From Halichondria panicea (Eukaryota > Porifera > Demospongiae > Suberitida > Halichondriidae), in NCBI RefSeq assembly GCF_963675165.1, contig NC_087389.1, positions 344,001 through 408,000 of the forward strand: 64,000 bases of DNA, read 5' to 3'. The stretch's first letter is position 1. Every line of letters begins with the position of its first letter. The position numbers and the translations under genes were made by a program. Under the pieces are notes generated by a model. That model did no database searches and was not told where the DNA came from. It worked only from the letters and a program-made list of their open reading frames with translations. Positions 39,700 to 42,547 of this stretch are shown one piece after another.

Positions 39700-40161
39700 C
39701 AACACAACTCTTGCACAGAATTACGATAGATAATTATAGTCGTTTGTTATGTTCTGTGTTCTGTGACAGTTTTAGATTGTGTGTACTTTTACACTTCTTT
39801 GTACGGATTTTCTGACTTTATGTACAGTATGTAGCAGAGTGTTTATTACATCATGTCAGTTCAATTACAATAGAAAATATTTATTATCAGTACAATTGTA
39901 CATGAAGGTGAAGTGACAAAGTCATCATGAGTACACTGACACAGTGCGCTTGAGGTGTACTCAATCATGTGAGACTTCTTACACAGAAATAAATAAACTT
40001 ATAGACCTTGTGAACATTGAGAGTGTACAATAACAGCTTCCAGCACACACCCACTGAAACAGCTTGAGGTGTGAGCTATCATGAATTGTACTCTATGTTG
40101 AGTTAAAATATATTATATGGTATGAGTGTTTCTGGGCCAACACACAGCTGACCCTCTAGCG
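39700..40161. other. Convergent 3' UTR region (phosphatase and selenoprotein gene)
   Basis: These 462 bases hold both 3' UTRs. A plus-strand poly(A) signal AATAAA lies at 39988-39993. The minus-strand signal AATAAA reads from 39847 to 39842. The transcripts should therefore overlap by roughly 150 bases, while the SECIS at 40021-40093 stays outside the predicted overlap. Confidence 0.6.
40021..40093 (-). promoter_or_regulatory. SECIS element (form 2) in the 3' UTR
   Basis: On the minus strand the order is: helix I GAGTACAAT pairing with ATTGTACACTC; the 5' core ATGA (40082-40079); helix II AGCTCACACCT pairing with GGGTGTGTGCT (eleven pairs including one U-U mismatch and one G-U); an unpaired AA (40065-40064), 13 bases after ATGA; a mini-stem CTG-TTT-CAG; and the 3' core GA (40040-40039). 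This is the complete set of eukaryotic SECIS features, including the sheared G-A quartet and the extra apical stem of form 2. The ATGA core begins 80 bases past the TGA at the end of the small gene's frame. SECIS elements bind SBP2 and direct selenocysteine insertion at UGA. Confidence 0.88.
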
Positions 40162-40483
40162 TCATCCATACGAGTCACGCTGTTGGAGCGCCTCATACGC
40201 CCTGTCCTCTTGCTCCCTCCGCTTTCGTTCATCCTTTGTTTCCTCGTACCCTCCGGCGTCAATCCCATTGGTCGTCTTCATAGCCTCGTCGTCACCCTCC
40301 CCCTTGCCAGTGCACTTGTAGAAACACTTGGCAATTTGTTTGCCCACGTACTCGCAGGCTGGAGGTGAAATATTGATAGGAAAATTAATGCAAATGTTTA
40401 TAATTATAGCTTGTTGTATATAGATTATCAGCCAAACAAAAATTAATACTAGAACACTCACCTCCAATTATTACTCAGCACAT
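40162..40483 (-). CDS. Predicted small selenoprotein, selenocysteine at residue 3
   Basis: Two exons, 40462-40483 and 40162-40358, are joined by a strong GAG|GTGAGT donor and a CTCCAG acceptor. The frame starts ATG TGC TGA and continues without interruption for 72 codons to a terminal TGA. With UGA read as selenocysteine (U) the N-terminus is MCUVIIGACEYVGKQIAKC, followed by FYKCTGKGEGDDE and a charged helix ending RREQEDRAYEALQQRDSYG. No other in-frame start reaches the Cys-rich part, and an in-frame stop lies upstream of the ATG. A full SECIS lies just downstream in the 3' UTR. The adjacent Cys-Sec pair suggests redox or metal chemistry; the clustered cysteines could also be lipidated. I do not recognise the family. 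If the last TGA is also read, the product gains Sec-Arg before TAG (to 40156). Confidence 0.75.
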
Positions 40484-40921
40484 CTTATATGAGTCTAAGA
40501 ACGGAGTTAATAGTCAGCAATAATAGCAGAGAAGAGAGTAGAAATAGTTAATTGGCCTTACGTACTTGTGTGATCACTATCTGGTACTGAATCATCATGT
40601 GATTGTAAACAAACATTGATATCTGCGCATGACAATTAATATAATTTATGTTGACGTTGTGGGTTCGGGTGGCCCAGCGGTTAAAGCGTTGAGGTTAAGA
40701 TCGAAGGTTGCGAGTTCGAATCCGATCAACAGCAGAGTTTTCGGTTTACGATATCATCACACTCAAACAATTATTACAAGCGTCACTAACTACTAAAAGT
40801 AAGCCTTACTTTGTAAGGTAAAGGTAAGTAAGGTTTGATAGAAGAAGGTAATGACACGCAGCAATTAATCGTAAATCGCAAATTAATCGTAAATTGGAAT
40901 AATGAAAAAAGAAGTATTCGT
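40484..40921. other. Intergenic region upstream of the selenoprotein gene
   Basis: These 438 bases lie between the 3' end of PQBP1 and the start of the selenoprotein gene, both on the minus strand. They hold the tRNA-related repeat at 40669-40725, AT-rich direct repeats around AAGTAAGG and AATCGTAAATTG, and presumably the selenoprotein promoter. No other gene is seen. Confidence 0.5.
40669..40725 (+). repeat. tRNA-derived sequence (SINE head or tRNA pseudogene)
   Basis: An A-box match TGGCCCAGCGG (40670-40680) and a B-box match AGTTCGAATCC (40713-40723) have the spacing of an internal RNA polymerase III promoter. The flanks do not pair into a tRNA acceptor stem, so a functional tRNA is unlikely. 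Confidence 0.55.
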
Positions 40922-42547
40922 TCAATTTTGTGCTTTTTGATTAGCTCTTAAAATGTCTCCAGGACTAGGATAGGGTCTCTGTTGATACAGCGGCCCACTT
41001 GCAGTGCTGTCAACTCCTGTTTTTGCATCACCAGATACCTCTAGCCCAGACTTCCACGATCCTCTGTGTGTATGGGGGTAGCCATGATTATTAAATAGTA
41101 CTATCAAATAGGAGCTAAAAATCACAATAGCAGAAGTAAATAATAGTTAGACACTGTTTTGGAGGTGTCTATGGGATTTAGAAGTCCAAAGGCACTGATT
41201 TAGTATCCCGAGCGTAGCGAGGGTACTAAAGTGGCTGAAGGCTTCTAAATCACATGGACACCGACAAAACAGTGTCTAACTCATTTAGATACTAGTGTGG
41301 ATGCACAAACTGCTTGACTACAATACAATTACTTGACAACGGAATACTAGGTATACTAAGTAAATTTGCAGGTATACTAAGTCCCATAGTATACCTGCTC
41401 TGAGGCACTTTCCCCATGTACTTCCCATGTAGATCTTATCAACTAGTGTCTAATGTTCGTTAGAACGCACTAACATTACCTGGTACAAGTCATATATCTC
41501 AGTTACAGCTTTTTATAATTATAGGCTGTTTAATTAAAATAATAAATAGCTCAGCTTTAATTAAAGATTAATGTAACTATTTTCTAGCATATACTCACCT
41601 TGGTATTTCTGAGTACGATGCAGGGTCCATTGGGTCGAGATCCCCATCATCATTATCACGACCTTTGTACCCTAAATATGCAGCATTCATATCACTCAAT
41701 CACATCACAAAACACACTCACTTTTACTCCTCTCGGGCTTGCTATACGGTGCTGGCCTCTTCTTGTCTTTTGCTGCCTTTGCGATCAAGTTATCTTCCAG
41801 TGGTGACTGGATCTCCTCAACAGGCTAAGGGTGTGGGAGGAAGTTAATATATTGGTAATCAAACATACGTAACAATATTCGCTCACTGGAGGTCTTTCGT
41901 TGTTTTCTGGGCTCTCATTATTTTCAGGTGCATTCAGAAATTGTGCTGCATAACAAAGTTCACAGTACAAAGGTCACAGTACACATCTACTCCAATGGTA
42001 CAATTACAATGTGATGACAACTTACTTCCATTGGGTGGATACCATGTTACTTCATTCGACTTGGTGTTCCAAAAATAGCTATGTATAATCCCTATAAATA
42101 CAAAACACAGCTATAATACATTTTTACCTTTTGTCATCTTTTACTTTCTTCCAGTTGGCGGGTAAGATGATGTTCACTCTTGCAGAGCTCAACTGTGTAA
42201 ACTTAATCACATGATACACGCACGCGCACACACATGTGAGATACAAACCTCAATGCCGTGTTTGTCCACACAGAATTGTGAGCATTGATGGTACAGATTG
42301 TCTTGATTGGGGCATACGGGTTTGGACGGCTGCTTGTTCTCATCAGTAGGCTCTGCTGATGCTGCATGAGATCATAATTATTCTGACGGTATGTACAATG
42401 TATCACACCACTGCACTGTACTACAAAATGATGTGCATCTATTCAGTATGGAAACACTGAGCTCACAAGGTAATACTCACGGGCACTGGGTCCTTTGATC
42501 AGCCCTTTCTTTGCTAGTCTAGCCTGAAGGGCGGCTGTGAGAGGCAT
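40922..42547 (-). CDS. PQBP1: Polyglutamine-binding protein 1 (WW-domain splicing factor)
   Basis: Eight exons (42481-42547, 42249-42361, 42128-42192, 42026-42078, 41887-41945, 41722-41824, 41599-41671, 40922-41063) encode 224 residues; human has 265. The N-terminus [18 protein letters not shown] matches human MPLPVALQTRLAKRGILK. A WW domain lies near residues 70-105 ([11 protein letters not shown] with second tryptophan in EVTWYPPNG). The C-terminus is diagnostic: [16 protein letters not shown] then [19 protein letters not shown], the intrinsically disordered segment that wraps around the U5 spliceosomal protein TXNL4A. PQBP1 is a nuclear pre-mRNA splicing factor. The repetitive charged Asp-Arg region between WW and C-terminus of vertebrate PQBP1 is much shorter here. 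The gene shares a 150-bp divergent promoter with the gene at 42698. Confidence 0.94.
41145..41281. mobile_element. MITE with long terminal inverted repeats
   Basis: AGTTAGACACTGTTTTGG at the left end is mirrored by CCGACAAAACAGTGTCTAACT at the right, and complementarity continues inward through GGATTTAGAAG and CTTCTAAATC. The centre is a palindrome around TCCCGAGCGTAGCGAGGG. The whole 137 bp can fold into one hairpin. It lies in the PQBP1 intron before the last exon. It has no coding capacity, as expected of a non-autonomous DNA transposon. Confidence 0.85.

Follow-up and report, generated by a model that had tools for sequence, protein, structure and literature searches.

A small locus on the minus strand of a 64,000-nucleotide stretch of the Halichondria panicea genome (the window, whose positions are used throughout) raises the question of whether a TGA codon two codons after a start ATG is decoded as selenocysteine or marks the end of a fortuitous reading frame. 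The first-pass annotation had proposed a two-exon gene whose frame opens ATG-TGC-TGA and encodes 72 residues, and our re-reading of the splice signals and frame bore out this model. The coding part of exon 1 (40462-40483, minus strand; ATGTGCTGAGTAATAATTGGAG) specifies MCUVIIG and the first base of an Ala codon and ends at a donor, GAG/GTGAGT, that matches the consensus at eight of nine positions. The proposed selenocysteine codon is the third codon (40475-40477), 13 nt before the exon junction. An intron of 103 nt (40359-40461), running from GTGAGT to the acceptor CACCTCCAG, precedes the coding part of exon 2 (40165-40358), whose protein segment is ACEYVGKQIAKCFYKC; exon 2 has a GC content of 56%, compared with 27% for the intron and 39% for the 3' UTR. 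The open reading frame ends in GGA TGA CGC TAG, with the terminal TGA, a stop or possibly a second selenocysteine codon, at 40162-40164 and CGC TAG at 40156-40161. Two AATAAA polyadenylation signals on the same strand (39842-39885; starts at 39885 and 39847) lie downstream of both hairpins described below. The spliced product of 72 residues starts MCUVIIGACEYVGKQIAKCFYKCTGKG, and its C-terminal part is RKRREQEDRAYEALQQRDSYG. An in-frame stop upstream of the start, also claimed earlier, is present as a TGA at 40514-40516. All open reading frame predictions that we found lack exon 1 and start in the intron or within exon 2. We considered intron retention and rejected it because, read upstream as far as its stop at 40470, the retained frame contains no ATG.

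Three protein searches covering 5.8 billion proteins identified four clusters that match exon 2 at 52-86% identity (P0003, 86%; P0004, 52%; P0005, 57%; P0006, 53%), in addition to P0002, which is the window's own frame. The motifs G[KR]QIAKCFxKCxGK and RRExEDxAY are common to all five sequences, and conservation of this kind indicates that exon 2 is coding. Because conserved residues precede the first internal methionine (Met34), translation must enter exon 2 from upstream. In P0003 and P0004 the first few residues come from the intron, and both have PP before ACEYVG, as expected from a CCNCCAG acceptor, which supports a splice site at this position; the first codon of P0005 and P0006 corresponds to Val12. 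Exon 1 is in none of the matching clusters, as would be expected of an exon that is tiny and stop-bearing. We found no paralogs within the sponge's own genome and no DNA from the relatives in scans of viral and genome contig collections.

We then asked how firmly exon 1 is tied to exon 2. The upstream neighbor on the same strand is PQBP1 (polyglutamine-binding protein 1), which spans approximately 42550-40922 on the minus strand, with its start placed by eye and its stop codon, also read by eye, at 40922-40924; its last exon matches PQBP1 of PDB entry 4bwq (E 6.3e-13). This stop sets the upstream limit for the gene, and exon 1 lies about 440 bases past it. The idea that PQBP1 uses exon 2 as an alternative last exon was rejected since, as judged by eye, the phases disagree: 2 at the end of the preceding exon of PQBP1, and 1 required by exon 2. 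A repeat at 40622-40790, between PQBP1 and the gene, leaves the free upstream space short. This repeat looks tRNA-derived (SINE-like); a genome search gave nine matches, its own copy among them, and the five best are on contig 13, which is the contig that carries the window; ARAGORN called no tRNA in the window.

Within this upstream region, the earlier statement that exon 2 has no alternative start proved too strong, as ATG exons with an in-phase donor and no selenocysteine codon exist. Between 41650 and 40390, 44 models combining an ATG with a donor join exon 2 in phase and contain no more than one TGA. Two of these have donors matching the consensus at all nine positions (41650/41647-41599) and are inside a PQBP1 exon in another frame, the frame being judged by eye; two match at seven of nine positions (41417/41387-41333) and five at six of nine (40616/40598/40595-40562, 40630-40615, and 41428-41395). 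The nearest good first exon without a selenocysteine codon is the 40616/40598/40595-40562 set, with the six-of-nine donor TAC/GTAAGG. In the interval from PQBP1 to exon 2, the TGA-bearing exon 1 scores highest among ATG exons with an in-phase donor, and any alternative first exon leaves the SECIS unexplained.

Past the stop of the gene, we re-found the stem-loop described earlier, with its landmarks in SECIS order. Element 1 (40026-40090, minus strand) is a form II SECIS with a mini-stem, in which helix I begins about 69 nt past the terminal TGA and is followed by ATGA at 40082 (79 nt past the TGA), AA 13 nt on, the mini-stem, and GA. Helix II has the 11 positions previously counted as pairs, but 10 of them pair and one is a U-U opposition. 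The covariance model Rfam SECIS_1 matches element 1 over its whole length (model positions 1-64 of 64) at 28.8 bits, with an E value of 0.0027 for a 1.1-kb search with all families, but this score is below the gathering score of 35; consistent with this, an Rfam scan of the whole window at curated cut-offs listed nothing. From interpolated or extrapolated genome-search E values, 28.8 bits corresponds to about 0.08 chance matches per 131-Mb genome. In a genome-wide SECIS_1 search that scored 133 of 1,782 first-look candidates, the element 1 site was not among the matches listed, and the same search gave matches below the cut-off in 4 of 14 prokaryote control genomes. RNAfold gave element 1 a z-score of -1.62, with 14 of 200 shuffles folding as well.

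A second hairpin, missed in the first-pass annotation, lies 114 nt downstream of element 1. Element 2 (39919-39977, minus strand) reads AAGTC..ATGA T TGAGTACAC CTCAA, mini-stem, GTGTACTCA T GA T GACTT and is SECIS-like in having a short helix I, ATGA (193 nt past the terminal TGA) with AA 13 nt further on, a helix II of nine pairs, a mini-stem, and GA. It received no Rfam SECIS_1 score, and its 3' internal loop is, by eye, shorter than that of the model; its RNAfold z-score was -1.03, with 32 of 200 shuffles folding as well. A genome search found only element 2 itself, so that it was rejected as a dispersed repeat. When the inner parts of the two elements were compared, 21 of 38 positions agreed. 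Among 15 pairs compared, seven are identical, five are changed on both sides and still paired, one goes from U-U to G-C, and two are lost in element 2. We suggest that the two hairpins read as an old tandem duplication held by structural selection, with convergence as a less likely alternative. A covariance model built from the genome's own SECIS elements was dropped because the helices were out of register in the alignment of four sequences behind it.

We assessed how often such hairpins arise by chance with a SECIS scanner that was written after both hairpins had been seen, with bounds fitted to them. It gave 16 matches in the window, both strands counted, and ranked element 1 first and element 2 second. 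When the 281-nt UTR was dinucleotide-shuffled 20,000 times, no shuffle reached -24.4 or -22.9, the scores of the two elements; 266 gave any match and 2 gave two matches. Among 240 simulated windows, 19 reached -22.9 and 9 reached -24.4, and 200 kb of real genome yielded 54 scanner matches, one of which (-25.7) was stronger than both elements. That match belongs to three adjoining ones (-25.7, -22.3, and -22.1) inside a tandem array; chance clustering of this type was rejected for the locus, as there is no tandem repeat at window positions 39800-40500. Known SECIS elements of the genome fared variably in the scanner, with that of a glutathione peroxidase scoring -15.9 and that of an AhpC-domain gene being missed because it lacks ATGA. 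Scanner energies alone are not discriminating, given that 9 of 240 simulated windows reach -24.4 and a real GPX SECIS scores -15.9. The earlier judgment that chance is unlikely for this locus holds for the UTR shuffles and for the expected number of chance SECIS_1 matches per genome, with the window-wide simulations giving weaker support.

To learn whether this sponge decodes selenocysteine at all, we searched its genome (131 Mb, 39 contigs) for tRNA-Sec, SepSecS, and eEFSec. The best tRNA-Sec match scored 73.4 bits (cut-off, 47), with weaker matches elsewhere in the same genome; in the prokaryote controls, the tRNA-Sec model matched in all 14 and exceeded the cut-off in 5. SepSecS exons are represented by six stretches, one of which contains a TGA (controls, 3 of 14), and eEFSec domain III is present (controls, 0 of 14). 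The genome thus contains at least these parts of the selenocysteine machinery. It also contains other genes with in-frame TGA codons and SECIS elements. A selenocysteine GPX (VNVASKUGLAQ) at locus L003, with its SECIS at 1501-1567 on the minus strand, and at L043 and L044 has a SECIS scoring 33.6 bits, and the AhpC-domain gene at L004, with an NLSUGPC motif, has one at 1501-1569 scoring 31.4 bits. Like element 1, both fall below the curated Rfam cut-off of 35, and the 28.8 bits of element 1 are in the range of genuine elements of this genome. Around an Rdx exon (L041), the scanner found no SECIS-like site.

These findings, namely a conserved coding exon, a nearby first exon that is the best supported and has a TGA in frame, a SECIS in the genuine range, and components of the selenocysteine machinery, support the earlier selenoprotein reading at the level of sequence. 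We consider it likely that the locus encodes, in two exons, a new selenoprotein of 72 residues and that the UGA at codon 3 is recoded via a SECIS about 290 nt downstream, probably aided by the second tandem SECIS. A different selenoprotein would result if the terminal TGA were the selenocysteine codon (...DSYG-U-R), with either another first exon or decoding of the N-terminal TGA as well. The GGA TGA CGC TAG end of the frame, the possible selenocysteine-free first exon at 40616-40562, and the positions of the ATGA motifs of elements 1 and 2, at 79 and 193 nt past the terminal TGA, are all compatible with such a product. However, the residues after the last conserved Tyr number 1, 1, 4, 2, and 2 in the five sequences, unlike what a fixed selenocysteine would show, and this variable tail length suggests ordinary stops in the relatives; the donor of exon 1 is also the stronger one and brings the TGA into the right frame. 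We regard selenocysteine at the terminal TGA as unlikely. Selenocysteine at both ends, at residue 3 next to Cys2 and at residue 73 in a YG-U-R tail, with a dedicated pair of tandem SECIS elements for the two positions, appears quite unlikely; if true, the gene would have two selenocysteine codons and two SECIS elements, would be far smaller than SELENOP, and would encode a protein that lacks a thioredoxin fold.

Two further explanations dispense with selenocysteine in the present-day protein. A different first exon, such as 40616-40562 with the product M(M)IQYQIVITQVPCEYVG..., could be spliced to exon 2, in which case the TGA-bearing exon would be a chance ATG and the hairpins would be fortuitous or have another role. 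The selenocysteine-free first-exon models, the weak RNAfold z-scores of the hairpins, the score of element 1 below the Rfam cut-off, and the lack of a score for element 2 are consistent with this, but it would leave two SECIS-like hairpins directly past the stop in a genome that decodes selenocysteine, neither score reached by any of 20,000 shuffles and with pairs compensated between the copies, making this explanation improbable. Alternatively, the gene may be a former selenoprotein gene in which the start codon moved, selenocysteine is no longer inserted, and the SECIS elements persist as relics. An alternative first exon would fit such a history, but the core motifs are kept in both hairpins, and the six differing helix II pairs comprise three compensated, one gained, and two lost, where free decay would break more; we consider this history very improbable.

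For the preferred reading, recoding at codon 3, we propose that SBP2 and eEFSec, bound to the SECIS some 290 nt further along the mRNA, would recode UGA3 to selenocysteine, with the second tandem SECIS probably helping. The coding region has a single exon junction, which the UGA precedes by only 13 nt; by the 50-nt rule, which PMC5133445 quotes for SELENOP, the mRNA should thus escape canonical nonsense-mediated decay. A structure model of P0003 places helices at residues 10-26 and 50-67 (mean pLDDT, 60.6; pTM, 0.28), from which the protein is predicted, with low confidence, to lack a thioredoxin fold and to consist of two helices. The first helix, with a hydrophobic moment of up to 0.50 and cysteines 9, 19, and 23, is predicted at the same low confidence to be amphipathic and the second to be charged. 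Judging from its composition, the first helix may bind membrane, perhaps acylated on some of its cysteines, and the Cys2-Sec3 pair could, more speculatively, form an N-terminally exposed, redox-active selenenylsulfide that cycles. The product might then be a peripheral membrane redox protein.

To our knowledge, new animal selenoprotein families are rare and a selenocysteine at residue 3 is unusual. The earlier annotation matched the protein to none of the selenoprotein families that it considered. The product has no match in Pfam at E values up to 10, its relatives have no precomputed Pfam domain, and a PDB profile search gave chance-level matches only, none below an E value of 1.4. SELENOK and SELENOS are small, helical, charged, membrane-associated proteins with selenocysteine near the C terminus. 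By general description, our product resembles them in being small, helical, and charged and differs in that the supported selenocysteine is at residue 3 and in having no Pfam match. By name, the protein is absent from the 21 invertebrate selenoprotein families in the table of PMC3473315, and our searches of an open-access library turned up no description of such a family. The best reading is a new family of eukaryotic selenoprotein, set apart by name only from the families tabulated there, with an unusual selenocysteine position and SECIS arrangement. PMC3473315 reports one new family, AphC-like, in its sponge and AphC-like selenoproteins from sponges only. That family is thus reported as sponge-restricted, as the one proposed here would probably be, and the AhpC-domain UGPC gene with a SECIS in the present genome may be a counterpart of it. 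AphC-like has a thioredoxin-like domain, and we saw no resemblance to the two-helix peptide.

Compared with eukaryotic selenoproteins with form II SECIS elements, the gene shares the in-frame TGA, the 3' UTR SECIS with ATGA, AA, GA, and a mini-stem, and the selenocysteine machinery; it differs in its selenocysteine at residue 3, its lack of a Pfam match, and its low-confidence two-helix model. PMC2874816 describes two SECIS elements in SelP and in human Sep15, the upstream one of Sep15 being nonfunctional, and in Ciona SelW1, where only SECIS 2 is suspected to work. Our gene resembles SELENOP in having two elements in one 3' UTR, the second here being SECIS-like and without a SECIS_1 score, but SELENOP is an unrelated protein with many selenocysteine codons. 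Ciona SelW1, as presented in that paper, is likewise unrelated and is alike in combining two SECIS elements with one selenocysteine codon. If our reading is true, a 72-residue selenoprotein with an N-terminal Cys-Sec pair and no thioredoxin fold would broaden the known uses of selenocysteine, recoding at codon 3 would test how early after initiation the selenocysteine machinery acts, and two tandem SECIS elements serving one early codon would provide a compact natural test of why two are kept.

The genome searches also returned two sites of a different kind. One, at 1501-1564 of locus L005, is a weak SECIS-like match (21.6 bits; scanner, -20.4). The other, at G000:C8:5704687-5706891, contains six matches to the tRNA-Sec model (38-53 bits) within 2.2 kb and may be an array of a different tRNA whose variable arm is long.
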